64,000 nt of DNA from the NCBI GenBank assembly GCA_030247885.1, contig JAPDRO010000003.1:1962307-2026306 (forward strand), read 5' to 3'. The DNA is from Taxawa tesnikishii (nom. ined.) (taxonomy: Eukaryota; Ascomycota; Dothideomycetes; Dothideales). Made by a program: the position numbers and the translations under genes. A model generated the notes under the pieces. It searched no databases. It was not told where the DNA came from and saw only the letters and a list, made by a program, of their open reading frames with translations. This document shows positions 1,229 through 50,364 of this stretch, in pieces. Numbering within the stretch: position 1 is the first letter of the stretch; each line of letters opens with the position of its first letter.

Positions 1229-2085
1229 CTATTTGCACTTCTGGAACACAAGCGTGCAGACACTCTGCCCTTGCCTGCCACCGAAGGTAAATTTCGGGTA
1301 ATCCAGCTCATTAAACAGCTTCAACTGTCCGTCATCCGTCTCAAACCAATTAAGCAGCTCTTTTCTCGTCCAGTTGCAGGAAGTGATAATCAGAAAGGCT
1401 CCCTTCTTGATCAACGGCAGCACTCGCTCCCTGTACGTCTCGCAGACCCTGCGGCCCTGTGCGTCCGTCTCTGCGGAAAGTGATATAGCATCAAACGTGC
1501 CCTTGTCCAGGACGAGATCGAATCCTTCGCTTAGCCAGTCTCCGGCCTGCTCGCCCAGAATATCCCAACGCTCGAAGCGGAGAGTCTGCGGGTCCGGCGG
1601 TGCAGAACCATCGTCTTCCTCAGCCTCTGCCTTCCACTTTTCGTGCCGCTGCTCTGATATCCTGCGCGCGAGTTGCACGCTAGCTTCGCTGTAATCGACC
1701 CCGACCATTTCCCTCTCCAACCTTCTTGCCGGAGCTCAAACAGCATGTGACCATTCCCGGTGCCGAGATCGACTATTCTGCTACCGCGACCTTCTTCTCC
1801 TTTGCTAATCTTTGCGTCCGGTCCGTCGTGCAGGTCCTCTAGGTATTGGATCACTTTTTCCTCGGCGCCGGAGTCGTCGAACCAGATGGTGCCTTCGTCT
1901 TCGGCATCTTCGGCGTTGTTGGAGATTTCGCGGGCGTAGGCTTCGTCCCAGCTGTGAAACGTAGTTAATTATTGCGGCGCTGTGGTGAGCGTCTGTGGAT
2001 GTACGCACAATTGTTTCGTGCCTAGCTCGCTGGGGTCGAGGTGTGTACGCGAGGCATTTGGCGCTGCTACGAGTGAAGTCAGCAT
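1229..2085 (-). CDS. EFM4: Protein-lysine N-methyltransferase EFM4 (See1), elongation factor 1-alpha methylation; one frame break
   Basis: A seven-beta-strand class I SAM-dependent methyltransferase. In yeast, EFM4/See1 methylates a lysine of eEF1A in the cytosol. Exon 1 is 2085-2009, starting MLTSLVAAPNAS and reaching an LDPSELGTKQ motif. A 57-bp intron (1952-2008, GTGCGT...CAG) follows. Exon 2 (1951-1229) begins FWDEAYAREI. Then come EGTIWFDDSGAEE, the SAM-binding motif I VDLGTGNGHMLFELRQEGW, the acidic motif VGVDYSEASVQLARR, DLVLDKGTFDAISL and a C-terminal TSCNWTRKELLNWF. The frame changes between motif I and VGVDYS: the run TTT at 1708-1710 (AAA on the coding strand) is one base short. 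With it the gene is 267 codons, normal for EFM4. The family call is secure. Whether the break is real or a sequencing error is open; I favour error. Confidence 0.88.
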
Positions 2086-2588
2086 AAGGGTGACAGATCT
2101 TTCTCAGGAAACGGTCGCGAGGCACCTTACGCTCCATGGTGGTTGAGGACTGCTGGTCAAGGATAGCCCGAATGGGTAGCCAATGTAGTTGTTGAACGTA
2201 TCCTGCTGATAAAATGTTCAGCGAATTCGTTGATAGCAACAGATTTGGCGATTAAAGGAGAATTGCTGAGGTTCTCCAACACCAACCCCCACATTTCGAC
2301 GATCTCCCGCATGGCATGATGGCGCCCCATTCTTGGCCTGGCTCCCGAAGCCACTGCAGGCCAGTATGTGTGTATCCAACTCACGCAAGTTCACGCTGCA
2401 ACGTCGTATCTAAACAACTGCTGTCTACTGCGTTCCATTTCGCTCTCCTAAACAACATATTTCGTTTAATGACACGGCCTGCCTCACGACTATCCATGTT
2501 TTAGTATCTACCAACTACTGGATCCGGCCCCCATCCAGACAACATCAACACCATCCCTCTAGTTAGCTCGAGATACACCACGACCGCA
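2086..2588. promoter_or_regulatory. Divergent promoter region between EFM4 and the Ark/Prk-type kinase
   Basis: About 500 bp separates the two divergently transcribed start codons, so it must contain both promoters and 5' UTRs. I see no sharp TATA box or repeated operator. The 60 bp before the kinase ATG are rich in C and A with ACATCAACACC and ACACCACGACCGCA, a common leader composition in filamentous fungi. Confidence 0.5.
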
Positions 2589-5500
2589 ATGGCTGCTCCG
2601 TATGCCTCTTCCGCTATGGCAGGCCTTCCTCAGCGGGCCGCTAACTTTGGCGCTCCCGTGCCAGTGTCCAATGCCCCTCCTGGTACTTTCGCTCCCGGAA
2701 CCAAGGTTCAAGTCGGCTCTCACCGCGTAATAATCGAGAAATACCTCTCCGAGGGTGGTTTTGCCCATGTTTACGTCGTGCGAGTACCAAAAGAAGGAAA
2801 CAAACATGAGATCGCCGTCCTCAAACGTGTGGCTGTTCCGGACAAGGAGGCATTAGCAAATATGCGGACGGAGGTCGAGACAATGAAGAAACTCAAAGGA
2901 CACCGGCACATCGTCACATATATTGACAGCCATGCCAGTCAAATGAAGGGAGGGGGCTATGAGGTGTTCCTTCTTATGGAGTTTTGTGCAGGCGGCGGCT
3001 TGATCGACTTTATGAACACACGGCTACAGCACCGACTTACGGAGCCAGAGATTCTAAAGATATTTGGTGACGTGAGTGAGGGAGTTGCGACCATGCACTA
3101 TCTGAGACCTCCGCTTCTGCACCGCGATCTCAAGGTCGAGAACGTTCTGATCTCAAAACCGCCCACTTCTTCTTCTGGCGTGGCATACAAGCTCTGCGAT
3201 TTTGGAAGTGCAGCACCTCCGCGACCGGCAGCGACCAATGCAGCAGAGGGGAGGTTGATCGAGGACGATGTGCAGCGACATACGACAATGCAGTACAGGA
3301 GTCCGGAAATGGTGGATGTTTGGCGGAAACAGCCGATCGATGAGAAGAGTGATATCTGGGCGCTAGGAGTTCTGTTATACAAGCTGTGCTATTACACTAC
3401 TCCGTTCGAAGAGGTCGGCCAAATGGCCATTCTGAATGCGAGCTTCAAATATCCGCATTATCCACCGTTCTCGGACAGGCTCAAGAGGCTGATTGGTCAG
3501 TAACAACTACAGGACGAACAAGGCTGAGTTTCTGACAACATCGTAGGTTCAATGCTTAAGGAAGATCCAAAGCAGAGGCCGAACATTTACCAAGTGATCA
3601 AGGAAGTTTGCAGCATGCGAGGAACGCCGGTACCAATCAAAGATGTATGTGGTCCGATACTGCGGACTGCGATATGCGACACTGACAGGCTAGATCTATG
3701 CAAACCGGACGCAATCCGAAGCCAGGAAGAACGAGCACCTGCCTTCCCCAGTACCATCTGTTGCGTCACCGCCCCTGCTGGCATCCATCATGCACCGCCA
3801 GTCAAACAAGTACAAGCGATACCGGACATTGCTCCAATGAGACGCGGAAGGCCCACAGCGCCAGCACAGCAGGCCCCTGTGTCAAAGTCTAGCGCTAACC
3901 CTTCTCCAGCACGAGGTGATCCCTTCGCTGCACTAGACTCAGCCTCTTACCAGGTTCGAGTTGGAGCAGTAGATGAACTTTCAGCCCGCTTTCCCTCGTT
4001 AGACGAGTTTTCCATTGCTGTTGACAAGGGTGGCGACTTCAAGTTCGCGCCGTCTGCGCGGACAGAACAGACGGATTTGAACACCCGGACTACCCATGCC
4101 TTAGCCGATAAAGTATTTGCCCAACCGAAACCAGCTCAACCCACTACCTCAGAGGTACAGCGCAAGGCAGCTTCACAGCTGCGTCCAACAAAAGTACAGA
4201 GTGACGATTCTTCGAGCAGACGGTCAGAATCTTCCAAGGACAACAATCTCCTGCATCAGCCGACCGCAGTCAGGCCAGGATACGCTTCTACGGGAACCAT
4301 GACCTCGCCTTCCCCTCCTGTGACACTCCCGAAGCTCCCGGAGATCAAGCATCGGGCAATCTGGCGGGTGCCTGACCATAACAGATCTTCCAGTCAACCG
4401 CGCGCATCACCGTCCTCGCAATCGGCGGCAAACTCACTCAAACCGAAAAACCCGCAACGGCCATCGTTCCTCGACACAAACAGGTCAAAATCCCAATCGA
4501 GCACCGTCACCCTACGATCTCCTGCCTCGTCTCGTCCCTCGCTAGAAGGGCACAGACCATCTGATATGGATATGAACGATAACCTGACGCGCGCCAAATC
4601 CGCGAACTCGAAAGCACGGCCAGTGAGCGCGGCTTATGTCGAATCCAACCTTGACTTCCTACGGGACCAGGAGAGAGAATCGGCTTCGAAGAAGAGGCCT
4701 TCACTTGATATCCGGCGACCTAGCAGGCAGCCATCTGGAGAGAATGAGGTTGCTATCGATGACACGAACATCGAAAGTGATACAGATTATCTTCGAAGTG
4801 TCGAAGGTGGCCAGAGCGCCGGGTGGAGCAGCAGTAGGAAGAGCTCCGACCATAAGAAACGAACAAGCCTGCCGTCTCTTGGCCTAAGCGGCACGAAAGT
4901 GTTCGGTAGCAAGCTTGGGGATGCGTTCAGGAGATTTGAGTCTGGTGGAAGCGACAAGAAAGACAAAAGACCCGATCAACCTCTGCGGACGCCTAGTCCA
5001 CAGCCACCTGGGCAAACCGAAAAGGCTTTGCTTAGCCCGATTTCGGGATCCGAGGCCACGGCTTCTCCGCCTGGTAATAGAGGCAGTATGACTGCGGATC
5101 TTGCAGAAACGGAAGACCTACCACCAGAAGTGCGGCGAGAACTCGAAAGACGCAGGCTCGAACAAGAAGAAAGACGGGTGGCAGAGGCGGCAGCAGAGCA
5201 TCGCAACCGCACAGCCAACGGTCAGACTGTACCGAATCGCGCGAGCACGATCCAGAAACGGGTCCAGTCACTGCTGGACGAGGGGCGGCAGTCTCCCGCA
5301 CCTAGACGGACGGCAGAAGGCTACGGACACTACACCGACAACCCTCATCCACAACAGCAACTTCCGCTGGCGGTCAGCAACAAAGGTCCGCCGCCCATGG
5401 TAGCCCGCAAACCGGTCGTTGCCGCGCCTGCTGCCAATATGGCGTACAGCAAGCCCAGACAGCAACAGCCTATGAACCCACCCATAGCTTCAATTCCTAT

Positions 5501-5959
5501 ACCGTCCGCGTCCGCGCCGCCTGCCCATCCGAGACCGGCCTCGAGACCTAGTGCGCCACCGAAGCCCATGGCTCTCAGGACAGGCACGCCGGTGCAGGAT
5601 ATCTCGTACCCGCAACCGCCAACAGCAAGCCGAGAGGCAACGTCGGCGGGGATAATGCTCCCGCGAGCGGGCCGCGTAGCAGGGGAGCAGGACCAGGGCT
5701 TGCGGCACTGCTCGCGCGCGACGCGGAAGGCGTTGCCGCGCCGGGTGGTGGTCACACTCAAGACCCCAGCGCTGATATCAGGACGGCGGACAGCGTGCCG
5801 ACGGACGCGGTGGGGGTGCAGGAGGATTGGGAGGCGGACTTCAGTAAGCGCTACCCCAGTTTGAGCGGCATTGAGATGGTGGAGACGGAGATTGTTGCCA
5901 ATGCCGGCGGCGGCGGAGGGCCCGGTGGTAGGAGGATGCTGAGGGTCAAGGACGTGTAG
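2589..5959 (+). CDS. Ark1/Prk1/NAK-family serine/threonine kinase (actin and endocytosis regulation); two frame breaks
   Basis: Exons are 2589-3495, 3547-3644 and 3694-5959, with 51- and 49-bp introns. The N-terminal kinase domain (residues about 40-330) has the glycine loop EGGFAHVY, the VAIK lysine in IAVLKRV, LLHRDLKVENVLI, LCDFGSA and the activation segment TTMQYRSPEMVD, all typical of the NAK/Ark1-Prk1 group that phosphorylates cortical endocytic adaptors. The long tail is disordered and Pro/Ser/Lys-rich, with DPFAALDS and an R-(F/Y)-P-S-L motif near residue 480 and again at the C-terminus (ADFSKRYPSLSGIEMVE). The frame changes twice: at CCCC 3772-3775, between SVASPP and the conserved IPDIAPMRRGRP, and at GGGG 5648-5651. 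Each run is one base short. With both bases the gene gives 1091 codons and ends at TAG 5957-5959. As deposited it stops early at 5864. Confidence 0.88.
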
Positions 5960-7019: not shown

Positions 7020-8519
7020 ATGTCTTCTTACGGGGTGCTTTCACGATCCGCTGTTTACGTGCTCTTTGCGTGTTTCGGAGTTTACGCGCAGTTGTCGAGT
7101 GAGTGGGCGCCTGGCAGGAAGCCGCTTGGAAGAATTCAATCTGTTGCTGTGTAGTCAAATACTGACCACGAGCTTGCCACACAGCCGCTGATGTCGCCGA
7201 CAATGTCAAACAGGGCATGGGAGATGAATCGGACTTGTCTCCGAATGTGACCACGTTTGTGTCTACCGCGCCGACCGCGAGCATCTCTTGGGTGACCTAT
7301 TCGACCACGGATACAGATGTTTCCGAAATCGCACACACTGAAGACGTGCAGACCGGTTTTGATACACCAACCCCGAGCTTTTCCTGGATAACACTCCCAA
7401 CGGACGTTACAATCAGTGCTCCTTTCGCCCACACTGAGCTTGGAGAGACTGGGTTCGATACGCCGACCACGCCGACCCCAAGCATATCCTTTACTATCCC
7501 TCCAACCACTAAGCACACGCTTGGGCCCGTGGCCGAATCTGCGCGCATCGAGGTATCAGATAACGGATTCGTGACACCGTCTGCACATATCGAGGCAACT
7601 CAGACCGCCATTGTCGCACCGACTCCGCATACCGAGGTGGCACAGCCTGATTTGAACACGCCATCCACAACAGAAGGCCCAGTAGCCCAGCCAATCGAGG
7701 TCAAACCAACCGCCGAGCCAGCGTCTCCGGGGGAGATCAGGGTCCGAGCCAGGATGCGACAGCATTTCAAACAGGAGGATCGTTCGCAACCTTCTCCAGC
7801 CCTTCCGTCGTGCCCCAGAACACCCCCGCCGAAACTCCATCGCCAGTACCAACTGCCAGCGACGCCGGACCCGAAACCCCAACCCCCACCCTCCCGGTCC
7901 TCCCGCTCCTGAACGCCGCCGTGACGCCGACATCGGGCGTATACGTCGTAGCCGGGCAGACGCTCACGCCCGGCGGCGCCGCCATCACCGTCTCCAACAC
8001 CCCCATCTCCGCAGGCACCGGCGGCGGCGGCGGCGGCGGCGGCGTCGTCTTCGTCATCGGATCCTCGACCATCGCCTTCGCAACACCCCCACAACTCCGA
8101 CCAGCGCCCCGGACACCTCCGCCGAGATCCAGACGGTCTCGCGCAGCGGAACGGCCGCATACCGCATCGGGACGCAGACCTTGGCGCCCGGGAGCGCGGT
8201 CACGGTGGGCGGGACGACGTATTCGCTTCCCGTTTCCGGTTCCGGAGTGCGCGTGAACGGGGCCGCGGCGGGATCGGATGGGGCTCTGGCCTCGGGTGCG
8301 CGCACGCGGGTTGAGGGTGCGGGTGGCAGTACGCTTGCGACTGTGTCCGGGTCGTCCGGCCCCGCTCCTTCCCTCTCCGCGTCTGCCGGTGGAGGATCGT
8401 CCGCGGCTCCGGCGGCAGCTTCGCCGAGTACGGCGGACGCAGCGGTGGAGAGGACGGTGTGCGTGGGTCGTTTGGTGGCGGTTGGGTTTTGCGCCGTGAT
8501 CGGGCTGAGGCTGATTTGA
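7020..8519 (+). CDS. Secreted, GPI-anchored-type cell-wall protein with Gly/Val repeat module; two frame breaks
   Basis: Exon 1 (7020-7098) encodes MSSYGVLSRSAVYVLFACFG followed by VYAQ, a signal peptide. An 86-bp intron (7099-7184, GTGAGT...CAG) follows. The mature part is Thr/Ser/Pro-rich with repeated HTE-x(5)-F-x-T-P units (residues about 60-190). Then come wall-protein modules: GVYVVAGQTLTPGGAAITV, VVFVIGSSTIAF, AAYRIGTQTLAPGSAVTV and GTTYSLPVSGSGVRVNG. After a Ser/Ala stretch it ends in a hydrophobic tail (LVAVGFCAVIGLRLI), as expected for a GPI signal. Two runs are one base short: GGGGG 7729-7733 and CCCCC 8086-8090. With them the gene is 472 codons. An eight-unit GGC repeat codes for glycine. 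It is a smaller relative of the protein at 46.8-50.4 kb. Function is probably structural or adhesive; no enzyme domain is seen. Confidence 0.75.
8020..8043 (+). repeat. (GGC)8 trinucleotide repeat inside the wall-protein gene
   Basis: Eight consecutive GGC units encode a polyglycine run between the two repeat modules. Being in frame, its length can change by whole residues without breaking the protein. Confidence 0.9.
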
Positions 8520-10317: not shown

Positions 10318-10572
10318 GGTTGAGGTCGCGCTGAAGAGGTGGAAGGTTGGGTGCAGTGGCTGGGAAAGGAATGACCTTGTCGCAAAAGAGAGGTTGCAAG
10401 AGACGCGGAGCAGAGTGACGTCGGTAGAAAACGCGAATTCTTGGCATCGTATAGCACAACACGAGCTTCAGCCAACTTGACTGTGTACACACACACCCTC
10501 GACACTTGGACTGTCGACGCTCGCACTCGCACTCACACTCATATCCACTTCAAAAGTCCAGATACTGCAGAC

Positions 10573-11160: not shown

Positions 11161-11983
11161 CCCATCGGCTCCGCTCCTCGGCCAAGAATGCCACGATCTG
11201 TGCCACATCATCCACCGTACCCATCCGGTTCTCCATCGGCGTCGCCTTCTTCTGCGCCGTAACAATACTCTCGGTCACTTCAGTAACCATATCGGTCTCA
11301 GTAGGCCCAGGGTGAACGACGTTGACAGTATGCCCTTTTGGTCCGAGCTCCGTTGCCCAGCTCCTGGTCAGAGCTTCCATGGCGGCTTTGCTCGATCCGT
11401 ACAATGAATATCCTGGAAATCCGCCGCGCGCACCGACGGAGCCGATATTGACGATTCGGCCAGGACGGCGGAGGTATGGAAGGATCTCTTGGGTCATGAA
11501 CACTGTGGCCCGGACGTTGAGGTCGTAGATGTACGCAAAGTCTTCATGGGTGATGTCCCCAAGGTTTCTGGTCAGAAGACATCCAGCGTTGTTGACGAGG
11601 ATGTCAATTGCATCGCCGGGAAAGGCGGCCAGAGTGGCTTCAACGATTTGTTTTGGAGAACTCGTGTCCCGCAGGTCCGCTTTGATTTTGACGGCTTTGG
11701 AGCCGTTCTCCAGCTCTGCAATCCTTGCTACAAGCTGATCCGTCTTCTCTGCGCTGCTCTCTGAGGTGTATGTCACGGCGACCTGAGCCGCTTTTCAGTA
11801 AAATACATGGAAAGGCGGCAGATATAAGCACACCTTTGCACCTCGTTTCGCTAGCTCATACGTAATTCCAGCGCCTGTAGATCATGAGTGTCTTCTCGAA
11901 AAACGCAAATCAACATTGTTCCCACCGATCCCTCTGCTGCCACCAGTGACAATGGCCACTTTTCCGCTCAAAGTATTGGACAT
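11114..11983 (-). CDS. Classical short-chain dehydrogenase/reductase (3-oxoacyl-ACP reductase-like)
   Basis: Three exons, 11983-11926, 11874-11834 and 11782-11114, are separated by two 51-bp introns and give 255 residues. The N-terminus carries the cofactor motif GKVAIVTGGSRGIG, followed by NNAG (ILVNNAGCLL), the catalytic serine in NIGSVGARGG, and Tyr/Lys in YSLYGSSKAAMEAL. HPGPTETDMV and a C-terminal GQSISASGGYAMY follow. This is the FabG-like classical SDR layout. The arginine in GGSRGIG suggests NADPH preference (general SDR knowledge). No targeting sequence is visible, so it is probably cytosolic. The substrate cannot be told from sequence. The reading frame is intact. Confidence 0.9.
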
Positions 11984-13114: not shown

Positions 13115-15454
13115 CTAGGACAGACGAGGCACGCCCGAGAGAAGCTCCACACCGTCGATCGGGTTGCCGTTCTGGTTAAGGCCAAAGTCGATGATGAGAA
13201 TGCGGCCGTCTTGGCTCGTGCTGACGATGCGACGGTAATCGCACTTGGCGGCCAGCATCCAGGAAGTAGTCCATTCAGGAAAGACCGCAACACTCTGGCC
13301 AGTCTCGAAGTTGTAGACTCTGAGGTCAAGATCGTAGGATCCCGAGACCACACGGTTGTTCTGCGAATCCAAGAACAGTGAGCGCACAAGCTGGGAGTGG
13401 CCCATGAAAGTGCCGACCTCATTGCCACTGGCAACCTCGAATTTGTATGTGACGTGGTCGTTGCCACCAGCCAATACGTACTTGGCGTCGTCGCTGAACT
13501 CGACGGCTGCGAGGCCACGGTCCTTTGAGGGAAGTCCTTGACGCAGTTGCCAGTGTCCTTGCCGAGGTCCCAAAGCTTGGCAACGCCGTCACCACTGGCA
13601 GAAACAAGAAGGTTGCCACGCAATTGCACGGCGTTGACAGGGCCCCGGTGGCCCTGCAAGACGCGAATGGGCTCCAGGGTCTTACGGTCCCAAACCACGA
13701 TGGTGCAGTCCTTGGAGCACGAGACGATATGCTTGGAGTCGAAGGCGACATCGAGGACACCGCCGTTGTGTCTCCTGAGACGCTTGATGGGCTCGAAGGT
13801 CTTAACGTTCCAGACAATGAGGTCGCAGTCGCTGGAGCCGGTGACCAGGATCTCATCGTCGTACTGCAGGCACAAGATACTCTGGGTGTGGAAGTCGGAA
13901 GGAACGTGATAGATGTCATTGCCCTCACGAGTGCCGTTCATGGAAGGCTGAGCGTGATGGTAGTAAGGATACTCTACAGTGCGAAGGACCTTTGGACCGG
14001 GGACCGGACGGACGGTCGGGCCTCCGATGACTTTGAGGCACTTGAAGGTGTTGATATCCCATACGCGGATAGTACGGTCGCGGCTGCCGGTGATGATCTT
14101 GTGCTCATCGAACTGGACACAGTAAACACTGTCAGTGTGTCCAGCCATGTAGATAGCCTTGCCCTTGCCAGCAGCCCAGTTCTTCTCGATCTGTTGACGG
14201 GCTTGGTACATCTTCTCCCATTGCTGGTTGGGCATGTTTGGCAGCCCTACACCGACACCGCCAATCTGGATGGGCGCAGGGTCGACGTAGGTCTGCTTTC
14301 CGTAGGTGTTGAGGTACACACCCCTCCAGGTGAGGTGGTCCTTGGCGAAGGTGTTCCATAGTCCTCCGAAAGTTTGGCAAACCTTGAGGGTCCTCGCGTC
14401 CAGGTGGGAAAAGACGACATGAACGACCTCGGCAGGCAATACCTAGTAGGAGTTAGAGTCTGAGTTGGTTCCATGGGAAGCGTAATTACAGTGAGCCCGC
14501 AGGGTCGCAAGACGACCTGTTAAAGCAATGCTCGTCGGATGTCACGTACCTTGGTCGGGTCCATGTGCTTCTCAGTAGAGATGTCCTCCTCTTCAGAGTC
14601 TGTGATATCGATCATATCAATGTCTGCGTTCGAGCCAAGATCTGCTCCACTATCCGCTGCGCTAGACAAGCTGCCGATCCGTTGCCGATTCTGGTTGCGT
14701 TGGATCTCGAAGTTGTGAAGAGCAGCGGACCTTCTCGCAGCTTCTCCAGGCAGGTACATTGGTGGGTAAGATTTAGACGAAGTTATGGCAGGTGGGACTG
14801 CAGCGGAAGTTGCACCGTTGTTAACTGGCGCGGGAGTGTCATAGCGCAGTGCCTTCCCCGAAGCTGCGAGCCTTGAAGCGTTCAAACGAGTGAAGAAGCC
14901 ATGGATGGGAGCTGTCTCCTCGACACCCTCCATAGCCTCACCGTGGCTGCTCGAAGGCCTGCTCCTGGAACCAAAGCCATCTCTCATGGCCTTTTGGAGC
15001 TTGTTTCCCCTCTGCGAAAACTTCCGGATCAAACCCCGGATTCCTTCTGAGACTTGCCGCTCCTGGTAGACGAGCTGGAAGAGCTTGGCGGAGATTGTCT
15101 CTTCAACGATGCCTCCTTGGCGGTTTCCTTTCCTCGCCAGTCAATGGCACGGAAGAGGGTTGTGGTTTCCCGGCGTCTGTGAGTCTGTTCTCTCTCGCTC
15201 ACAGCAGCCGCGCTATGGCGAGAGCTGTTGTGGTGGGCGGATGAGTGGCGTCTTTGTGGGATTGGTTTCGGAAGCGAGTGAGTGGACACCTGACTCGAGA
15301 CGGAAGGGCGGGGAGTGGGATCGTTATCATCTTCTTCGTCGTCAACGTTGGGGAGTGGTGCCGAACGAACGGTGGGCGGGCGGTGGTTGATGACGATGTT
15401 GTCGAAAACTTGGTGCTCAGCAGTGGCTGGCATGGTGAAATCTGAACGGGACAT
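13115..15454 (-). CDS. F-box/WD40-repeat protein, predicted SCF ubiquitin-ligase substrate receptor; two frame breaks
   Basis: Exon 1 (15454-14550) encodes a disordered Ser/Pro-rich N-terminus with a basic segment (LIRKFSQRGNK) and an acidic DITDSEEEDIS stretch. A 107-bp intron (14443-14549, GTACGT...TAG) joins HMDPTK to the F-box VLPAEVVHVVFSHLDARTL. A linker with WEKMYQARQQIEKNW follows, then seven WD-type blades, for example GHTDSVYCVQF, TGSRDRTIRVWD, SCSKDCTIVVWD, GHRGPVNAVQL and SGSYDLDLRVYN. The layout matches the Met30/Cdc4/SconB class, which bind Skp1 through the F-box and substrates through the propeller. I cannot fix the ortholog. Two coding runs are one base short: GGGG (15034-15037, CCCC on plus) and CCC (13529-13531, GGG on plus). 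With them the gene is 745 codons. As deposited, the last three blades are out of frame. Confidence 0.85.
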
Positions 15455-19233: not shown

Positions 19234-20794
19234 CTATTTCAAGCTCCACTCGCCGTCCTTCTCCACAATCTCCACGCTCCTCTTCTCATCCAAACTCCTC
19301 CTTCCGGCCTCCAAGATGGCGCCGGTAGCAATGGTGTTCTTCAGCGTCGGCAGACCGCGCTTGTCCAGCTCGTCCAGCGTCACCTTGCCATCCTTGAGGT
19401 CTGCGATGGCGTCGACGAACTTCTCGAAGGAAACATAACCGTATCCGCCCTGGCCGGCGAAGTTGCCGGACTCGTCGGGTGCGTACTTCATGTAGAACCT
19501 GCGGAAGGAACGTTAGTGAAGATCTTGAGCGCAGTGGGCGGAGCATCCAGGGTAGGGATTAGAGGTCGAGAGGAGGGGATGTACTCACGGGTTGTACCAC
19601 ATCAGCTGACCCTGGTCATCCTCGGCTACGTCGTATCCTCTCTTGGCTTGGTTGACTCTGACCTCGCCCTTGCTCGCCATGTAGTGGAAGTATTGGTTGG
19701 AATGGACACCGGCCTTCTGCGGGGCGGTCCAGCTCGAGGTGTAGACACCGGTCGCTCTCCTGCCGCTGCCGTCCTTCTTCTCCCAGTCCACGACCAGCGT
19801 GATGGTGTCCTCCGTCTTCGGGTCACATCCCAGATCCGTGGCGATACCCGTCGAGGCGCTGGCGGTGACCTTTGTGGGGCGGTACGAGGGCACCATGGAC
19901 TCGTTGACGTCGATGTGATGCGAGTTGAGGTAGTAGCTGATGTCCGAGTCCTTGCCGGCCCAGGCCTTGAAGGTCTCGAGCTGGCTCTTGGGCTGGCTCA
20001 TGTAGGAGTAGAAGTAGTTGAAGTCGCCGAGGTTCTTGGCCTTGGCGCGGGCGTCCGAGTAGGCAGGATCGAAGCGCTTGTGGTGCTCGATGTAGACGAA
20101 GACGCCGTGCTTGCGGGACTCCTCGAGGAGGGTGAGGTGGTCCTGCAGCAGCTTTGTGGCGGGCTTGGTGATCATGACGTGGATTTTACGCTGGATGGCG
20201 TACAGGGCAATGGGGAAGTGGGTGGGGTCAGGAGTGAAGATGGTGATGGCATCGCCAGGGAGAGGGCGTCGATGGCGGTCTTGTAGGCTTCTGGGTCGCG
20301 CTTGTCGTTTTCTGGGAACGAGTCGAAAGAGGTGTCGAGGTTGTTGTAGACCTGGGTGATGTTCTTGTTCAGGTGTTCGCCTGGAGTGAGGTGTCAGGAG
20401 CCGTGAGAGAGAGACGCGCCCGTCTCGCCGCCCGTGCACTCAAGCTGGGACTAGAACCGAGCAGATGGGGCTGTATGCGACACTGCACCGCGAGTTCATT
20501 CTGCCCTTGGCGACCATGGGCTCGCAGCGTGTTCGTCATCACCGTCTTCGGGGCCACCACTGCGTGCGATCCAGCGATCAAGCTCGTCCAGACAGCGAAA
20601 GAGAAGGATCAGACTCACGGATAGCAGGGAATTTGTTTCCAGACTAGTCTCGCATCAGCATGATTGTCTTCGCCAGGAGTACTACGTTATTGTACTTACA
20701 GTGCCGACCATGGACAGCTTGCCGACCTTCCCCTCCTTCGCAGGTCAAACAGTGTCAGACCGACAACACCGACCTTCTTGTCAGAACCGGACAT
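19234..20794 (-). CDS. Gfo/Idh/MocA-family NAD(P)-dependent sugar oxidoreductase; two frame breaks
   Basis: Four exons: 20794-20700, 20643-20619 (25 bp), 20380-19589 and 19498-19234. The introns are 56, 238 and 90 bp, all GT-AG. The start [20 protein letters not shown] leads the Rossmann strand. [20 protein letters not shown] and [20 protein letters not shown] follow. [14 protein letters not shown] carries the conserved K-P of the family, and [18 protein letters not shown] the following helix. A C-terminal alpha/beta domain with [13 protein letters not shown] completes it. Such enzymes oxidise or reduce sugars, inositols or sugar acids; the substrate is unknown. Two runs are one base short: CCCC 20730-20733 and GGG 20258-20260 (plus strand). 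With them it is 393 codons. It is divergent from the aldolase at 21680, which suggests shared regulation. Confidence 0.82.
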
Positions 20795-29083: not shown

Positions 29084-29959
29084 TTACCAAGCCGTGTGTC
29101 CTCCATCAATGACTAGGTTGTTACCGGTCATGAAACTGCTCGCCCTGCTGAGCAGAAACAGACCCGCACTCTTGAACTCTGCCGGGTCCGCCAATCTCCC
29201 CAACATGTTCTCCGCCTCCCATTTTTCCTTCAAGCCTGGCACCTCCTCGAAGTTCTTACGCACCATCGGCGTCAGGATGTGTCCCGGACTCAGACAATTC
29301 ACCCGAATGCCGCCGGTGCCGTCCGCGTTGACATGACTCCACTCCATGGCCAGGTTCTTCGCCAGTTGGATCACAGCCGCCTTGCTGCTGTTGTAGACGG
29401 GCGATAGCAATCCCTTGTTCGCGACCATTCCGGACATGGATGCCACCAGGCAGATGCTGCCACGGCATTTGTACTTTTGCATGGCGCGTGCACAGCTCGT
29501 CGCTGTCATAAACACACCCGTATAGTTGATCTCCAGCATCCGCATCGCGTCTTGCACCGTGTAGCTTGTCGCCGGCGTGATCTGCTGCACGCCTGCGGCT
29601 GCGAGAAGCCCATTCAGCCCTTTGTTCTCATCCGCGATCTCCATGATGACATCGTCAAGGTTCTCGGTGTTGCTGACGTCGACTCGGCGGTAATGCAGCG
29701 CGCCGCCCCATTCGGGGACTACGCGCTTTTGCGCTTCGTGCCATTCGTTGTCTGGTTCGGGCAGTCGATCTAGGCAGTAGACTGCGATACTGTTAGTATT
29801 CCAGACCCTGGTTGTGCCGGGCGTCAGTCGTGACACCCACCATTTCCTCCTGCCTCGACCAGAGCTTCTGCCATAGCCAGACCAAGGCCGCGTGCACCGC
29901 CCGTTACGATGAAGGTCCCCCCGCAAGGTCAAAATCTGCGAATCTTTTCCGGCCGACAT
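29084..29959 (-). CDS. Short-chain dehydrogenase/reductase; one frame break
   Basis: Exons 29959-29841 and 29781-29084, with a 59-bp intron (GTGGGT...CAG), give about 271 residues. The start MSAGKDSQILTLRG runs into the cofactor motif FIVTGGARGLGLAMAEA. The intron joins EAGGN to VYCLDRLPEPDNEW. Further motifs are the D-V loop (YRRVDVSNTE), LLAAAGV in place of the usual NNAG, the serine in LVASMSGMVANKG, YNSSKAAVIQLAKN (Tyr/Lys), and a C-terminal SSFMTGNNLVIDGGHTAW. This is a classical SDR resembling sorbose or mannitol dehydrogenase-type fungal enzymes; the substrate is not assignable. The C6 run at 29917-29922 (plus strand) is one base longer than the frame needs. Removing one gives 272 codons. 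Confidence 0.85.
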   Translation of the reverse strand: MSAGKDSQILTLRGDLHRNGRCTRPWSGYGRSSGRGRRKWWVSRLTPGTTRVWNTNSIAVYCLDRLPEPDNEWHEAQKRVVPEWGGALHYRRVDVSNTENLDDVIMEIADENKGLNGLLAAAGVQQITPATSYTVQDAMRMLEINYTGVFMTATSCARAMQKYKCRGSICLVASMSGMVANKGLLSPVYNSSKAAVIQLAKNLAMEWSHVNADGTGGIRVNCLSPGHILTPMVRKNFEEVPGLKEKWEAENMLGRLADPAEFKSAGLFLLSRASSFMTGNNLVIDGGHTAW

Positions 29960-30753: not shown

Positions 30754-30950
30754 GGAGGGTGTGAAGAGAGTTTCTAGGGATGGTCTGCATGCCGGGTGCC
30801 TGCGCAGCGCAGGGCAGCCATCGAGGACCTGGAAAGAAGTCGATTTAAGCATACATGAGCCTGTCAAAGACTTAAGACACTGCAGGGTCCCTTATCAGAA
30901 AGGCGATTAGGCCAGGACTCCAAACTTGGGACCAGGGAGACGAGAACATC

Positions 30951-30978
30951 CATGTGGCATGTGGCATGTGGCATGTGG
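30951..30978 (+). repeat. Four tandem CATGTGG heptamers
   Basis: Four exact CATGTGG units, followed directly by GGACA repeats (ACAGGACAGGACAGGAC). Confidence 0.9.
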
Positions 30979-31541: not shown

Positions 31542-32750
31542 ATGGCCTCCCTCAGATCCATCGCCCTCCTGGCTCTCAGCACTGGCATTGTCAGCATGGC
31601 CAACGCCCAAGCCTCCGGCTCCGGCACCACCACCCGCTACTGGGACTGCTGCAAGGGCTCTTGCGCCTGGTCCGGCAAAGCCGATGTTTCCAACCCGGTG
31701 ACGACCTGCGATATCAACGACCAGCCGCTCACCGACTACAACGCTGCCTCCGGATGCAGCGGCGGTTCTGCCTACATGTGCTCTAGTCAGAGCCCATGGG
31801 CCGTCAACGATACTCTCGCCTACGGTTTCGCGGCCGTCAACATCGCCGGCGGCAGCGAGGCTCCTGGTGCTGCGCTTGCTACAAGCTTACCTTCACCTCC
31901 ACCTCGATCGCCGGAAAGGTAAGAAGACAACAGCCTCGAACGAGATGTCGATGAGTAAAGATCTGACATCTAGTCCGCAGACCATGATCGTGCAGGCCAC
32001 AAACACTGGCGGTGACCTCGGCTCTAACCAGTTCGATCTTGCTATGCCCGGTGGTGGTGTCGGTATCTACAACGGCTGCACCGACGAGTGGGGTGCTCCA
32101 GCTTCCGGCTGGGGTGCGCAGTACGGTGGTATCTCTTCAAACACCTGCTCTTCCTTTCCCAGCGCCCTCCAGCCCGGTTGCGACTTCCGCTTTGACTGGT
32201 TCGAGGGTGCCGATAACCCCACTGTCGACTTCGGTGAGTACCCTCAGATCTTGATCTAGTACGGTTGACCTTGGTCGGTATGCTTACACTCTACTGTAGA
32301 GCAAGTCACCTGCCCCAAGGCCATCACCGACAAGACCGGCTGTGTCAGGGCTGGCGAGACCCCGACCACTGACGCCAGCACCGGCTCTGCGGCTGCCGCT
32401 TCCAGCTCTGTCGTCGCCTCCTCCTCCTCCTCCGCTGCTGCCCTAGTGGCATCCATATCCCCATCTGAGGCTGCCCCAGTAGCCTCCTCTGCCGCCCCGT
32501 CGCCTCTTCATCTTCCGAGGCTGCCCCAGTCGAGTCCAGCTCCTCTGCGCCAGTAGTCTACACCCCCTCGGCCGGCACCGCCTCCACCACCACCCTCGAC
32601 GGCAGTGCTGTCATGTCTGGCGCCTACTCCTTCACTAGCACTATCCCAAGCTCTAGCTCCCAGATCGCGCCTGTGCTGGCCAGCAGCAGCTCTGCCGCTG
32701 AGGAGGCACCATCTTGCCATGTGCAGTACGTCTACGAGTACGATCTTTGA
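31542..32750 (+). CDS. Secreted GH45 endoglucanase (endo-beta-1,4-glucanase V type); two frame breaks
   Basis: Exons 31542-31918, 31981-32233 and 32300-32750, with introns of 62 and 66 bp. The signal peptide is [20 protein letters not shown] followed by NAQA. The mature start [18 protein letters not shown] is the GH45 signature with the catalytic Asp. Further family features are GGSEA followed by [30 protein letters not shown] (the second catalytic Asp region), [10 protein letters not shown], and [20 protein letters not shown] with VTCP. A Ser/Ala/Val-rich linker follows and the C-terminus (ends [11 protein letters not shown]) has no cellulose-binding module. The enzyme cleaves beta-1,4-glucan outside the cell. 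Two runs are one base short, near 31862-31864 and CCCC 32495-32498. With them the gene is 361 codons. As deposited, the first break destroys the enzyme. Confidence 0.88.
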
Positions 32751-39470: not shown

Positions 39471-41807
39471 TTAGACTATAGTAATCACTTCGGTCGTGAA
39501 GGTTTGGACAAATCGCAACCAACGGGCTTCTGTTGAACTTTCAGAATTATCAGGGTCGCTTTGAAACTGAATGCGGCCGCATCTCGTGTATTCTCCAGTA
39601 CCGGTAGGCTTTAGTACAAGCCCTACCGGCGCGGCCCAGGTCCAAGCAATATCCTCATCAAATTCTCTAGGAGAGCAAAGCAACAGTATTACAACGTCCT
39701 CAGAGTCTTTGGGCAAGCAGTGAACACTGTCGACGTTCATCTGATGTGAATCTTCAGACTCCATTTGCAGTCTCCCACCGAAGGTCACCCTGCTTGTGTC
39801 ATACTCATCGTACGGCGTGGGATTTATTTTCCATACGGCGTTTGTCGTCTTTCCCCGAAGCGTTAAGCGTCCACTCTTGACAGGTCCCGTGGGTAAGATA
39901 GGCTGCACTATGTCTGTGTGGCAATGCAGCACTTCTACCTCGCTCATGATGTCCTTATGGAAGTCCTCTGCGCTTGGAGTGAATTGAACGCCGGTTGCAG
40001 AGGCCCAAGACCAAGAAGGTACTCTTCTATCCTTCGGACTGTCTGTCTTCGAGATATGTACCTTCCAACAAAAGCCTGATACGACGAAGTTGCCCCAGAG
40101 TCCTGCATGGTATAGCCCAAGAACGTTGCCGTACCTGGAAGAAAATTCGGTAGCAAGCGCAGCGATCGCAATGAGTGTATCGTCCCGGGTTGTCAACTTT
40201 CTGCTAGAATAGTCTTCTACGCAATTTTCCCATGCGTCCATAACGTCCAACACACTGACGGATCCCGGTCCTTCGGATTCGGTTTGTCTTAGCGGTTTTC
40301 GTGGAAGTCGAAGAACTTCGAATCTGATGTGGCGCAATGGCAAATTGCCATCGACCTGTACATCTTTCCCTTGCGTATCACACTGGAACATCATTCCTCC
40401 AGCAGAAGGAAATTCCAATAGGCGTCGACACAGCAGTTGTTCTTGAAGAACCCAGGCCCTTCCGTGTGCGGGTTCATTTTCTCCAGCATAGCAAGACCAG
40501 CCATTGCCGCACCAGTCTTCGGTCCAGATCATTGTCAGACCATTACGTCGACGTTGGCCCGTTTCATCATAGTATGGTACGTTGGCTGGTTGGGAGGAGC
40601 TCAGACAGGTAGGTATGCGAGAGTGTCCCAAGAATCTATCGTTGGCAGATCGGATTCCCGAGGGCAATATGACAAGATCGGCGTTGGAGTAGTATTGGTG
40701 CATCTTAGCCAATTCACATACTAGGTCGTCTCGGTCGTCTTGATCGATGCATACCGCATCGATCCATAGATAGTCAATCCCAAGGGCATTAACAACGGTC
40801 AGCGCGTCTTGGAAGGCTAGGGGCAGTTCGTTATAAGGAATGCCCTGTTCACGAAGTGCAAGATGTGCTAGAGACGACTTTGACTGAGTTCCTGATCCCC
40901 ATGCATAAGACAAACAGGCGTATGTTGCTTTTTTGTTCTTTGGAGAAGGATGGAGATAAACAGGCCTTGCACTTGATCCGTTTCGGGCCGTGGTCAACAG
41001 TCGAGTCGGCAACATTCTATTCGGGTCCGGCGAACAAGCATCATGCGTGTCTTGACAAACGCCGATCCAGGACTTAGCCAGGTCCAGATCGACACCATTG
41101 GGTGTCAGGACCAGCTTACCCACATTACTGTCTAGTGCAGAACAGTGAAACTGCATGGGACTGAAGAAGTATTTAGCAGCAGCGCTACCTGATTCGGGAA
41201 CATGTAGTTAGCCAAAACACCTTGTGCAGGTGGCAATATCGTATGGGCACGTACCATATTCGGCGCGAAGACCGTATACACTTGCTGGGCGATACCAGTC
41301 CATCAAGAACACTCTCATTCTGTGCAACGTGGTTTTCGTTATGTTGCTTTTGAATCCTTGGAAATCTAGCACGACGCGACACTTGCCATCAACGGATGCC
41401 CTTTGATCTTCACTAATTTCACTGTCGGACAGACCTATCTCTTTGAGAGATAATTGCAGACAATTGCACCAATAACACGTCGTAGGGGTTGTGGTTCGTA
41501 GTCGTTGTAACTCCACTTCGTACTCGACGTACCGTTCGGTATCCCATTGATCGTTTGGTGCTTCTTTGCCGGATGTATGAAATTGTCGCCACCCTTCTCT
41601 GCCCCAAGGCACATTTGAACAAGCATCACAAAGTGTGGAGTTGCCGAGCATGACAGGTGTGCCCATATCACTAGCTCGTCGGTCCAGCAGAGGGTTTCCC
41701 TCGGTATTATCAGAGGCTACTTGTCGCTCTGAAGCTGAGTTGTTGGTTGTAGCGGTCGTTTGAGCGAGCTCGTCCAGCTCACTAGGTGACATGGAGGGTG
41801 CGTCCAT
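39471..41807 (-). CDS. HET-domain (heterokaryon incompatibility) protein
   Basis: Exon 1 (41807-41255) and exon 2 (41188-39471), joined across a 66-bp intron (GTACGT...CAG), give 756 residues starting MDAPSMSPSELDELAQ. A Cys-rich LCDACSNVPWG and TCYWCNCLQ segment lies in the first 130 residues. The HET domain follows: ATYACLSYAWGSGTQSKSS, LPLAFQDALTVVNALGIDYL, WIDAVCIDQDD and NADLVILPSG. Downstream are GRAWVLQEQLLCRRLLEF and RRVPSWSWASATG, usual in this family. HET proteins trigger cell death or growth arrest after fusion of unlike strains, and many family members have no known role. It lies between RIP blocks yet has an intact frame, so it is probably under selection. An upstream TTG-led extension exists but the ATG at 41807 is preferred. 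Confidence 0.9.
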
Positions 41808-42540: not shown

Positions 42541-45062
42541 TTAGACATCAATGGTGACACACTGTCTCCGACCTCCAGCGACCACAAACTTCTGCTCTTT
42601 GAGGATAATCTCTCCTTTCGTTCTGTTTGGAGCACGGACACAGACGGTAGCTTTGCTGTCCTCCACCTTCCAGCTCGCTTCGATCTGTCCTGAAGACGTT
42701 GGTACTATACCGGATGCCTGTGTCAAGCCAAGACCGACGATGAGTGGCTGCATAGACCAAGTTGTGTATCCAGGTGTGAGCGGGCCGATGCCGAGTATGT
42801 ATTCGGGTAAAACATACGTTGGCGCGGCACCCCAGGGGTGAGACAGAGAAGTGAAAAGATCGATTCCGGGCGAGCCGTCTGGATATGCATACTCCCAGCT
42901 TGCACCCGAATAATATTCGTTCTGAGTCACCATTGCGGGCCAGAAAGTGTCGAGGAGAACTTGCGCAGAATCCAGTGGCGTGCCAAATTCCCTGTTAGCT
43001 ATGAAGAGAGCCTCCAATAGGAACCCTTGCACATTTGGTGAAAGTTGTGTTGTGGAAGTACTGTTGACGACAGAAGAGTCTTTGAAACCTATGCCGAGGC
43101 GCAATTGTGGAATGTTCTCGATCATTGCCGCGGCTTGTGTGGCGTTCGCTATTCCAGCTCGAATGGTAAAAGCAATACCCGCAAGAGAGAAGTCGTTGGG
43201 CGAGGTGAGGGACAGAGAGTAGAATCCCTTGGCGGCATTCCATAGCCGCGAGTTGATGGCTGCACTGATATTCCGCGCGGTGGTCATCCAATGGTCAGCA
43301 GCAGCGGAATCACCGATCGAACTCGCCACTGATGCAAGGTTCTTAAGCGCTAGGACGTTGAGCGCGGACGGCGCAGTTCCATTATCGGGACCGAGGAAGT
43401 AGAAGGCGTCCTGTGCTGACAATAGAGTCACCGGGTCATTGTAAGTTAGTCTCTTCGTCATGATCGTACTGATCTGTGTCCAGTAAGCCCTGATGAAATC
43501 CAGGTCGCCAGTCGATTGATAGTAGTCACTAATCGCGAGGAGGAGGAGGTCTTGATAGTCGGTAATACCGTACAGAGCCGAGGCGTATGCGTCCTTGTAC
43601 TGCAGGCTGGCGCCCAATGGACTGTCCATTGCAGCAAAGCCCGCAAAGGACCTTCACCCGCACTCCATTGCAGCGCTTGGACAATCGTACCACGGATATA
43701 GTCTCGCCGATTAGTACTGTGGAGTACGACTCTGCACGTGTGAGCAAAGTCACCGATCCACACCAAGCGATCACGCTTCGCACCATCCATGCAAACAGGG
43801 TTTTGGTTTGGAAGCACGCTGTACTCGGCCAACACGTCCTTCGAGGTCATCGGGTTGCTATATAGCACTGTTCCATTTCTAGCAAGCACTTGCACATCCT
43901 TGAAGTAAGCGTCCTGATCCTGAAATGGGCCAAATCCCCATGTGCCAGTATATGGGATGGGGGTCCAGATCTAGTGTCAACGGTCGAATACGCTTCCTGG
44001 AACGAGATGAACGCGAGAGTGTGGCTATCCAGAGAGACATTGTATCCTGCCGGGCCAATGGTGACCGAGATATTGTACCATTTGTCTGGTACGATCACTG
44101 TTGTAACGGGAAAGATCTGTACGGCAGGGACAGTCACAGTGGACTGATTGACTATCGAGAAGCCGTAATTGTAGATTAGTGAGTTTAGCGGTAACACCGT
44201 CCGGTTGGTGTCCACAAACGGTGGAGATTGGGTAGTAAGCACAAAGTACGAGCCGGAGGAAGATGCCTGAAGCGATGCGAAAACCTGTTCCCCCTCGAAC
44301 GATCTTTGTCATGAAGGAGATGGTGTAGTTGGAGAAGTCGACGCCAAGTGCGCTCTGCGATGTTTGCTGACCCCGAACTCTGACACCGTCGGACGTAATC
44401 TCCCACACCGCCGGGGCTGCACCGGCATCGATGCAAGCGGCTTGCACTGCTCGACCTCCTAAGTCGAAGATTTGACCATACAAGGCATTCGATGCACTGA
44501 AGCGGCCACTGAGTTGCTCCGGAGACAGATGGTCGGAGGTCAAGCGAAAGCCAGCGTTTAATGAGATAGAGCCTTCGGTGAGCAATCTTATAGATTGCCA
44601 CCTCTGCCCGCCTTGAACAAAAAATGATTCTGTCCGGCCCGTTGTGGTGATGTTGAACCTCTCAGTCCTGAAAGTGTTCGAGAGCCCATTCACAAATGTC
44701 CAAGGCCCGTCGCCATTGGGGTTTTGGAGTGCAGCAAACTCTTCGCCATACCTTAGTTCAACCTGAACTGGATGGGACAGCTCTTTAACGTCCAGGAAGG
44801 GAAATCCAGCGGTTTCGTTGCCGTAATCGAGTGTTGCCAGTGGTGAAGACCAGTCCAGGCTAATGGTAGTATTGGCCGTCCATACTGCAGTGGTGTTAAT
44901 GGTGGGTTCAGACCCGATAGCGTAATACATCGGAGCCAGGTCATCACCCTTGTGCTTGCTCACGTCGAAGGACCTGTAGCCTCCACTAGGTCGTAGGATT
45001 GACGCCCATACCTGTGGATGTACGGCTAAATTCAACGTCACAAGAGTAGTGAGCAGATGCAT
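42541..45062 (-). CDS. Secreted alpha-L-rhamnosidase-like six-hairpin glycosidase (GH78 type); three frame breaks
   Basis: Single exon. MHLLTTLVTLNLAVHPQVWA is a signal peptide. The N-terminal beta domains carry APMYYAIGSEPTINTT, FVQGGQRWQSIRLLTEG and several N-glycosylation sites. The catalytic region shows FGPFQDQDAYFKDVQVL, then MDGAKRDRLVWIGDFAHTC (an acidic DG-x-KRDR-x-x-W-x-GD motif of fungal GH78-like enzymes), YWTQISTIM, SLTSPNDFSLAG and SGASWEYAYPDGSPG. The C-terminal beta-sandwich ends RRQCVTIDV. The expected role is release of rhamnose from pectin or flavonoid glycosides outside the cell. Three one-base changes break the frame: an extra base at 44266-44267, a missing one in GGGGG 43959-43963 and a missing one near 43645-43652. 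Correcting them gives exactly 841 codons, so an intact gene hidden by errors is likely; degeneration near RIP DNA is the alternative. Confidence 0.82.
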
Positions 45063-45489
45063 TGTGATTTGCTTGAAGGATGCTGCCTTTGTCGCTTATG
45101 ATGAGTTAGCGATGTAGGCCAGCGCTTGGGAAACCTCCAGATTTATAACGAATAGACTTGCCCCGTTCCAAGCTGTGTACCCTGCTACTTGGGTCAAAGA
45201 GCCCCGAGATCACACATAGTAGACTCACTGCAGGCTGGGTTAGCCGCTTGCATAGTATAAAGCTACTTCTACAAGATCAAGCTAGAGCTAGGCCTAGCCT
45301 ACTCTATATCCCTGCTACCCGGTTCATTTGCCTCCGAAGTATAGATGAGCCCCGCATTCATAGTTCGCGGGGAAGTTTTCGGACACTACTACGCGCGTTT
45401 TCGTATTGCAATGTACTAAAGCGGCTAGATTCCCCATCTATCCTCTCGATGATCGGGTTTCTACGGGATATCCTCGGCGGATTAACTTA
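45063..45489. promoter_or_regulatory. Rhamnosidase promoter region bordering an A/T block
   Basis: 427 bp of normal composition upstream of the GH78-type gene. It ends sharply at the A/T-rich block. No gene seen. Confidence 0.4.
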
Positions 45490-46754: not shown

Positions 46755-49700
46755 ATGACACTTCGCACACGCGTGCTGGCGCTGCTTGGCTGTGTCTCGG
46801 CTGGTGTGCGCACAGAATCGTAAGTTTAACGGCTTCGTCGGGTTTCTTCTACCTCAACGGTTGACATTCGTAACAGATTACGCTAACACAACGAGCATAT
46901 CAATACATACGCCTTTAATTTCAGTCACTTCATCATCTTCGGCACCATCCTCGAGTCTTTCCGAGTATTTCACTCCCTCCACGTTGAGCTTAAGCTCAAG
47001 CCGGACATCTTCGCCGATCATCTCCTCGTCATCGTCAAGGTCCGCTTCCACGTCTTCAAGCGGGACGCTTCCCGTTGCACAGTACATCCTGCAAGGTCTT
47101 GGGTCTACCTCGACATAAGAGACAGCCTTGACGAACCAATCTTCTACGTCCTGGGCACCTCCTACAAACTCATCTCTGTACGGGCAAAACAACGGCACTG
47201 ATACAGACCATGTCTCGGCAACAAGGACGGCCTCCACTGCAGTGCCTGCGCCCGATCTGTCCTGTACCAGCACGGCGAGTTTGTCGGCTACGGCTTCGAA
47301 TAGCACCGTTCAAACAAGCTCGAGCAGTCCTGGGAGCCCTACCAACAGTAGGACTTGGACTGCCGCAAGCTCTTCGTTGCGTACTAACGGCAACAACACG
47401 TCGACGATCAGCAACACGTCCTTGAATGCCACTAATAACAGCACTTCGGCTAACGGAACTGGTGCTTCCTCGTGCAATGCCGCTTTGCTTGCATGGTATA
47501 GTGTCTATGCTACCGTATATACTACAGTTGAAGTTGTTGTATCAGCTAAGTTCAATGGTGAATATTACAGTGCGCCATATGTATCAGCGTACACTACGCT
47601 GTGAGTCTAGGGTACTATGGGTGCAGGAAGACGTACTGACAAATCCTCTTAGCTGCGACGGAATGCCCAGGGCTCACGGAACAGCTATTTATTAATATCT
47701 TACCGAGAATGTCACCCACACTACCACGTCAACTATAACCAGCTTCACATCAAATGCTGCTATGCCGAGATGCACCATCCAGAGTTCCGATTGCCGCAAT
47801 CTATGGGATGACTACTACCTATTCAATAATCTATTCCATTCGGTACAGTCAAACTGGACCACAGTCCCAGGCCCGATGCAGTCAAGTCCTACACCGCCAG
47901 TCTGTAATCTTTCCACGTACTCGACTTCGTGCGATCCTTCGAGTTCTAACGCGGGGTGGTGGTACCCATGCTACCTCAAGAGAAGGCCTGTTCAGCTCGC
48001 TTATTTTCCGGTCACGGCGGTGGGTTTCCCGTGCGGTAACAGGACTATCATCCCGAACAACGGCACCGGTATTAGCACGGCACAGGCTTTCGGAACGGTG
48101 GTTACTTCCCCTTCAGTCATTGTCTCATTCTCCACATTATACGCGCTGGACAATTGTGGAAACACAGTCGGCACCCCTCTTTCCAATTTCCTACTACCAC
48201 AGCGAGCCGATCAGATCGCTACAGATTGTGGCAGATATCCGCGGGTCTCGGGCCAGCCGGTTCTCTGGATCTTGCTGATTGGGTTTCCCCCATACCGTGG
48301 TCTGTGTACAAATGTATGCCGCAATGCGGACAAGGCGGAGGTGGCTGGCCAGATTATTGCTCTACTATGTATGATGATATTTTACCTCAACTAGCGTTCC
48401 CCACGGATGCATTCAACGTGGATCCGGCTTGGTCGACCTGTGGCTACGAACTCTACGGAAACCTTCTCTTCGACCCGCCTACAGCACTGCAACCTGAAGC
48501 GGCTCTCGCAACACCAACGGTGTCCCAGCATGCACCTATCACACCAGCGTCGCCGTCCGCTACTACTAATGCGGCTCCACAGACGTCGTCGAAATCGCTA
48601 TCCCCTTCGCCATCAGCGCTTCCGGAAAGCCTCGACCCATCGAACACACGGAACGCACTTTCATCCCTATCAGCAACCCTCCCCAGCGAAGGGGCACCTA
48701 ACCAAACTCCGGATGAAACGTCTCCCGCAACGATACCTGGTCCTTCGAACTCTTCTCCTACCGCACAACTGGTGTCGTCCGCTTCCCTCCCCCAATAATC
48801 CAAGTAATCCAGATACCCCGACACCTTCGGAAACCAGCCCCTCAGACACCGAAACAGCGATTCAGCCAGCCAATGGGGCGCGGCCAGCATCTTCTCCAGC
48901 AACTTCGTCGGATGGGCCAAATGTCGGAGGGATAATCGCGTCAGTCATCGGTGATGGCATCAGTGACAGCGCAGCGCCAGCTGTCTCAAAATCTAGCGAC
49001 AACCCAGCTAGAATTTTGGTGTCCATCTTTGAGGAGAGTGCAGCGAAGTTGTATCCGCCAGTGCAGACACAGCCAGCCGCCGTTTCTGCCACGGTCCCCG
49101 TTGCCCAGCCTGACCCAGCTTCATCAGTACGCGGGACGACCGCAGGCCAGGGCCAAGAAACAGTCGCAGGCTCTGGTCACTTGCCCCTTATCGGGTCTGA
49201 CACTCTCTCCGTTGGTGGCTCGGCGGGTCGTGTCGCGGACCATACTGTCAGTCTGGCGAGCGAAGGAATCTTGGTGGATGGGAGCACCCAGGCTTTCGCT
49301 GCGCAAACGCAGGCTGGCGCTCTACCGGCAGCAATAGTATCTGGACAGACCATCAGCCTTGCAAGCAACGGAGTCGTTGTAGATGGCCGCATCCAAGGCT
49401 CCCCGGTAATTCCAACCCAAGCGCCATCCATCGCCGTTATCACACTAGGTTCCCAAGTTGTCGAAGCCACCCAAGGCAGCAACATTGTCGTAGGTTCCCG
49501 GACCCTGAGCGTAGGCGGCCGGGCTGTCACTACGGCCGGCGAAACGGTCAGCCTTGCTAGCCAAGGCGTAGTCATTAATGGCATTACTAAGTCATTCTCC
49601 GCTGCGTCTAGTACGTTAGCGTCCACTCCCGGCGCAGTCTTCCAAATCGGCTCGCAAACGTATACAGCTTTAGGTTCTTCAGGCATTATAACCTTTGGAT

Positions 49701-50364
49701 CTGTAACACTAACGCCGGGTCAAGTAGCCACGGTATCCGGGACGGTTGTTAGCGACGCTTCAACAGGAGTAGTCGTCGGCAGCTCGACATACGCTTTGTC
49801 TCTTATTACGCCCGCGCCTATTGTAACCGGCGCGATTCTTACAGACGGCTTGGCGACCCTAACTGCTGTCTCCGAACCTAACGGCGTTGTCGTCATTGAC
49901 GGCACGACACTCTCGGCGGGCCCGCCTTCGAGATTAATAGCCAGCTTATAAGCGATGCCTCGAGCGTACTCGTAGTAAGCGGAACCGAGACAATCTCCTT
50001 CTCGATCATTACCAATGCGGCGCAACAACAGCAGCAAAGCGTCGACACCGTTTTCACCATCGGAGGCTTGACATATACTGCTTCCTCGGTTGCGGGCAAG
50101 AACGGCGTAGTCGTCATAGACGGCTCGACGTTGTCAATCGGCGGTCCGGCCGCTACCATTAGTGGACAGTTCGTTAGCGAAGGTTCCTCCGGCATCGTCG
50201 TAGGCGGAAGGATGACAGCGGCGTTCTCGACGATCGCCGGGCCTTCCCGTACTTCTCACACTACCATCAGCGGAGCAGGGGCAGTACGCGCAATAGCGCC
50301 TTGGGGTTTATTTGTAAGGTGTGCGCCTGTGGTAGTATACCTCTTCTGGAATTCTGTTGCATAG
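46755..50364 (+). pseudogene. Large GPI-anchored-type, repeat-rich wall protein with RIP-like stops and frame breaks
   Basis: The signal peptide MTLRTRVLALLGCVSA is followed by an intron of uncertain donor (GTGTGC at 46804 keeps frame; GTAAGT at 46820 would need a one-base change) ending at 46876. Ser/Thr-rich sequence and CNAALLAWYSVYATVYTTVE lead to a 52-bp intron (47601-47652). A Cys-containing globular part follows (SPSVIVSFSTLYALDNCGNT, LGPAGSLDLADWVSPIPWSV, DPAWSTCGYELYGNLLFDPP). A Pro/Ser stalk and about six Gly/Val repeats (IGSQTYTALGSSGIITFGS; GGLTYTASS with NGVVVIDGSTLSIGGPA) precede the C-terminal hydrophobic tail. In-frame TAA codons at 47116-47118 and 47693-47695 fit CAA-to-TAA RIP. 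Single-base breaks lie near 48243-48252, 48789-48793 and 49918-49923. The corrected length is a whole 1162 codons. It is related to the protein at 7020. Probably recently inactivated, or partly an assembly artefact. Confidence 0.72.

Follow-up and report, generated by a model that had tools for sequence, protein, structure and literature searches.

One-base frame breaks in the last 64 kb of a Taxawa tesnikishii contig are best read as assembly errors

A series of one-base frame breaks lies in the terminal 64 kb of Taxawa tesnikishii contig C23. Very probably they are errors in the assembled consensus and have no counterpart in the living fungus. The stretch analysed (the window, bases 1962307-2026306) is the final 64 kb of its contig, since C23 comprises 2026306 bases; the genome as a whole amounts to 29367862 bases in 34 contigs. 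A preliminary description of the window had proposed consensus error as the simplest explanation, and this is indeed the best reading because the same kind of break strikes genes that the fungus cannot live without. The strongest support for it comes from outside the window, from other contigs, where CCT5, PRP8, an Hsp70-family gene, a proteasome-domain gene and several kinase genes are broken. The finding belongs to a known kind of artefact and is not a real feature. Mechanistically, the consensus would have lost single bases, often within short runs of identical bases, on what was presumably a long-read platform; such losses are known for long-read assemblies that have not been polished enough with accurate reads.

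Frame breaks within the window

The preliminary description listed 18 breaks, namely 12 single ones, three between 42541 and 45062 and three between 46755 and 50364 (Table 1). Three-frame translations were inspected around the 12 single sites and the flanking pieces were searched separately. We also used a blind frame-break caller, in which a codon model trained on this genome feeds a two-strand decoder that weighs one-base breaks against introns and gene ends. A call was kept when at least 100 coding bases lay on each side, a rule by which the window calls at 10389 and 11218 were dropped; an intact dehydrogenase lies at 11218. As features of the deposited sequence, nine of the listed breaks are well supported, seven fit more weakly (20730, the three in the rhamnosidase-like gene and the three in 46755-50364) and two are weak (3772 and 15034). 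Protein-family or structure matches support five of the nine (1708, 13529, 20258, 29917 and 31862) and codon-frame statistics the other four (5648, 7729, 8086 and 32495).

Table 1. Frame breaks in the window (window positions; strand as + or -)
Feature	Position	Strand	Evidence
EFM4-like methyltransferase gene, break (name from the preliminary description)	1708..1710	-	Methyltransf_31; called blind
Protein kinase gene, possible break downstream of the domain, weak	3772..3775	+	By eye; upstream codon signal unclear
Same kinase gene, break near its end	5648..5702	+	Codon statistics show a frame change; blind call at 5702
Low-complexity gene 7217-8519, first break	7729..7771	+	Codon statistics; called blind at 7771
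Low-complexity gene 7217-8519, second break	8081..8090	+	Codon statistics; called blind at 8081
F-box/WD40 gene, break (F-box from the preliminary description)	13529..13531	-	WD40 matches on both sides in different frames; called blind
Possible break upstream of the F-box/WD40 gene, weak	15034..15037	-	Little codon signal
GFO/IDH/MocA oxidoreductase gene, break	20255..20260	-	GFO_IDH_MocA Pfam match; called blind
GFO/IDH/MocA oxidoreductase gene, probable second break	20730..20733	-	By eye
Short-chain dehydrogenase gene, break near its start	29917..29922	-	adh_short positions 3-25, E 4e-4
GH45 endoglucanase (cellulase) gene, break	31862..31864	+	Residue-exact against 5glx_A
GH45 gene, break in the downstream Ser/Ala-rich stretch	32495..32498	+	Codon frame 0 to 2
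Rhamnosidase-like gene, three frame changes	42541..45095	-	Pfam match on the last piece; frame order 2-0-2-1
Low-complexity gene, about three frame changes, introns possible	46755..50364	+	Codon statistics

The clearest single case is the GH45 endoglucanase gene, in which the upstream piece matches 5glx_A up to residue 87 and the downstream piece from residue 88. As the codons for these two residues share base 31862, the DNA is one base short and leaves no room for an intron. This bears directly on the idea that introns which escaped recognition account for many of the listed breaks, an idea that we regard as very improbable. Short introns are abundant in the genome, and they are possible in part of 46755-50364 and near 3772. 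At 31862, however, the two residues of the homologue follow one another directly with no DNA left over, and the caller, although offered introns, still picked breaks at six sites in the window.

The remaining matches vary in strength. In the EFM4-like gene, Methyltransf_31 is matched from position 3 to 24 in one frame, a weak match (E 0.007), and from 29/31 to 119 in the next; searches of the PDB with its pieces gave one chance-like match in one case and none in another. The GFO_IDH_MocA match begins at profile position 64, one residue past the break at 20258, and the two upstream pieces searched matched nothing in Pfam; for the probable break at 20730, the piece of 34 residues had no match there. 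At 29917 the frame that holds the start of adh_short has no start codon and meets a stop three codons upstream. The blind calls lie 54 bases from the listed position at 5648 and 42 from that at 7729, while the break at 32495 is reported solely at the laxest setting of the caller. The low-complexity gene at 7217-8519 also contains a pure CGG repeat of 8.7 units (8019-8044). A search of the genome for a second copy of the rhamnosidase-like stretch found none at the sensitivity used, and two pieces from 46755-50364 had no match in Pfam. By the frame order of the codon statistics, two of the six frame changes in these two accessory genes run in the opposite direction; one of them, at about 48.9 kb, is given the reverse direction by the caller when this is run at its laxest setting.

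Breaks in indispensable genes

The strongest evidence comes from CCT5 and PRP8, which are indispensable in yeast. In CCT5 (contig C1) the two pieces match residues 414-443 and 444-561 of yeast 4v81_E, with codons that share one base. In PRP8 (contig C8) one piece ends at residue 838 of 9r8v_A and the next begins at residue 840, with two bases between them. Each gene is one base short in the deposited sequence. A search for Cpn60_TCP1 returned 24 matches, which fall at ten gene places, a count that fits one copy per CCT gene plus relatives; CCT5 is the one identified among them.

Inspection by eye showed further direct breaks: C3 carries one in an Hsp70-family gene, C34 one in a proteasome-domain gene, and C14, C7 and C4 each one in a kinase gene. 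We take these three kinases to be of the PDK1, Pho85 and CaMKK type, respectively. The kinases stem from 143 matches, from which four candidate breaks were picked by coordinates; three of the four proved direct, the kinase on C29 (L054) not being among them. On contig C2, several kinase-domain matches form near-equal pairs, as if duplicated (for example 413883-414635, 810272-811024 and 878577-879329, or 446460-447296 and 965342-966178). At loci L015 and L029 a simple intron that would join the pieces was sought and none was found. Among the sugar transporters, nine matches were scored out of 323 candidates.

No living haploid fungus would be expected to combine the breaks in CCT5, PRP8, the kinases and the Hsp70-family and proteasome-domain genes. 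The breaks are spread over several contigs, over genome-spread and conserved-gene stretches alike, and do not favour a single gene class; they occur in indispensable genes as well as in ordinary genes of the window and are not confined to dispensable ones.

Two ways of taking the breaks as real must be weighed against these genes. The lineage might have lost mismatch repair and accumulated true one-base losses in short runs, the outcome expected from such a loss. Yet candidate MutS-type genes are predicted at six places in the genome and MutL-type genes at three, which makes a simple loss of the pathway unlikely, and a haploid would not tolerate the breaks in CCT5 and PRP8, so that we give this idea next to no credence. 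Alternatively, the deposited run lengths could be right, with CCT5 and PRP8 truly out of frame and rescued by a general mechanism that makes up for the one-base difference at short runs, such as polymerase or ribosome slippage; this strikes us as scarcely credible. Consensus error stays the preferred reading.

Frequency and direction of the breaks

Of the coding sequence scanned by the caller, 18819 bases lay in the window and gave six kept breaks, 96031 bases came from 20 stretches distributed across the genome and gave nine, and 45786 bases came from 30 stretches chosen for conserved genes and gave three. Across five settings, the kept calls ranged from 6 to 7, from 5 to 10 and from 3 to 4, respectively. 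Inspection by eye of the 12 calls kept outside the window (141.8 kb of coding sequence) judged eight to be genuine (two each at L035 and L039, one each at L037, L049, L016 and L030), one unclear (L033) and three false (two at L041, one at L006). The caller also misses breaks: it kept six of the 12 single breaks in the window and first chose an intron in CCT5. As measured by it, and with such misses, the sampled loci contain about one break per 10-20 kb of coding sequence.

The claim that most of the window breaks lack one base held up, all six kept calls there being one base short. Overall, 14 of the 18 kept calls have this direction, i.e., the six in the window and the eight judged genuine outside. 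The one-sidedness outside the window is not blind, because the four calls of opposite direction are the very four that were judged false or unclear by eye.

The window is richer in breaks than the rest of the assembly by a factor of about four to six, a figure to be read with the fact that the window was chosen for its visible breaks. The rate ratio is 3.8 when its six breaks are compared with the 12 kept elsewhere (p 0.014) and 5.7 when they are compared with the eight kept at a stricter setting (p 0.003); neither value corrects for the way in which the window was chosen.

E. coli K-12, run as a control at the setting used, yielded 11 kept calls in 120247 coding bases, which is close to the rate in the genome-spread stretches of the fungus. 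Compared by hand with the annotation, all 11 fall no more than about 45 bases from a junction between neighbouring or overlapping genes and none inside a gene; E. coli K-12 was therefore rejected as a measure of the false-call rate in the fungus. Since its calls all sit at gene junctions, raw rates of the caller need the check by eye alongside.

Relation to homopolymer runs

The preliminary description placed nearly all breaks in short homopolymers. Outside the window the link is clear: for 12 breaks, the mean mass of the position posterior on runs of at least four is 0.29, against a baseline of 0.036. Inside the window it is weak, as for 10 breaks the mean is 0.06 on runs of at least four (baseline 0.036) and 0.23 on runs of at least three (0.156), where the posteriors model every break as one base short and the placement of window breaks carries an uncertainty of about 8-23 bases. 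Programmed frameshifting would call for a shared, conserved shift site; the contexts in the posterior listing differ in base and run length. At 31862, where the break is placed to the residue, there is no run of three.

Long runs tell a similar story. Relative to a second-order Markov model, homopolymers of at least six bases are depleted in the genome-spread loci (24 against 64.7 expected, 0.37), in the conserved-gene loci (10 against 28.2, 0.36) and in the AT-rich block at the end of the window (3 against 22.8, 0.13). In E. coli K-12, a bacterial and not a fungal control, they are as frequent as expected (172 against 162.5, 1.06). Between 1 and 50 kb of the window there is no depletion (21 against 22.0). 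With the posterior low and long runs undepleted there, the homopolymer claim is insecure for the window, whose breaks rather resemble one-base losses of a general kind.

Known assemblies offer two points of comparison. In nanopore-only assemblies of Drechmeria coniospora, homopolymer errors break conserved fungal genes and were corrected with accurate short reads (PMC7500977). Both cases involve insertions or deletions, mostly in homopolymers in that fungus, that disrupt the frames of conserved genes; after polishing, however, over-long runs were the commoner error there, whereas nearly all breaks placed here are one base short (PMC7500977). In long-read drafts profiled by Kastor, errors that fragment genes are mostly false deletions, tied to runs of two to eight bases and most of them to runs of four to five (PMC12007338). 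The dominance of false deletions is shared with the present case, as is, outside the window, their tie to runs; unlike our analysis, which takes the deposited sequence alone, the bacterial assemblies described there were checked against relatives and reads (PMC12007338).

The window at the contig end

The GC content falls from about 55% in the first 36 kb of the window (bases 1-36 kb) to about 25% from 52 kb onward. Three kinds of telomere tandem repeat were tried over the whole 64 kb and none was found. The AT-rich terminal block of the contig (51001-64000) holds 20 CA dinucleotides against 618 expected and 18 TG against 583, with a TA/AT value of about 1.8-1.9, i.e., RIP-like mutation near saturation. 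An intact frame of 578 codons with a HET (heterokaryon incompatibility) domain lies at 39474-41207, bordering a stretch of 37% GC; together with the short introns, this domain would fit a filamentous ascomycete.

This setting raises the question of whether some window breaks are real, with genes decaying near the AT-rich contig end and the accessory genes being true pseudogenes on top of assembly errors. The density of breaks in the window, the several breaks of mixed direction in the accessory genes and the RIP-like block that adjoins them all lean that way. Ordinary genes of the GC-rich part (methyltransferase, WD40, oxidoreductase and dehydrogenase) are nevertheless broken too, and long open frames persist between breaks, so that we consider such partial decay unlikely, albeit the most serious of the rivals.

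The preferred reading, consensus error, has to account for the excess in its own terms. The preliminary description spoke of an unpolished assembly: the error itself is supported genome-wide, but the window is untypical, and lack of polishing alone does not explain why this contig end is so much worse than the remainder. Thin read depth at the contig end may be responsible, a suggestion that draws on a single sampled contig end; general one-base losses would fit thin depth there.

Implications

Gene models built on this assembly will come out split or truncated at a rate of about one per 10-20 kb of coding sequence in the loci sampled, and the rate is several times higher in the window. This amounts to a quality warning: accurate reads are needed before gene loss, pseudogenes or unusual proteins are claimed for this genome.
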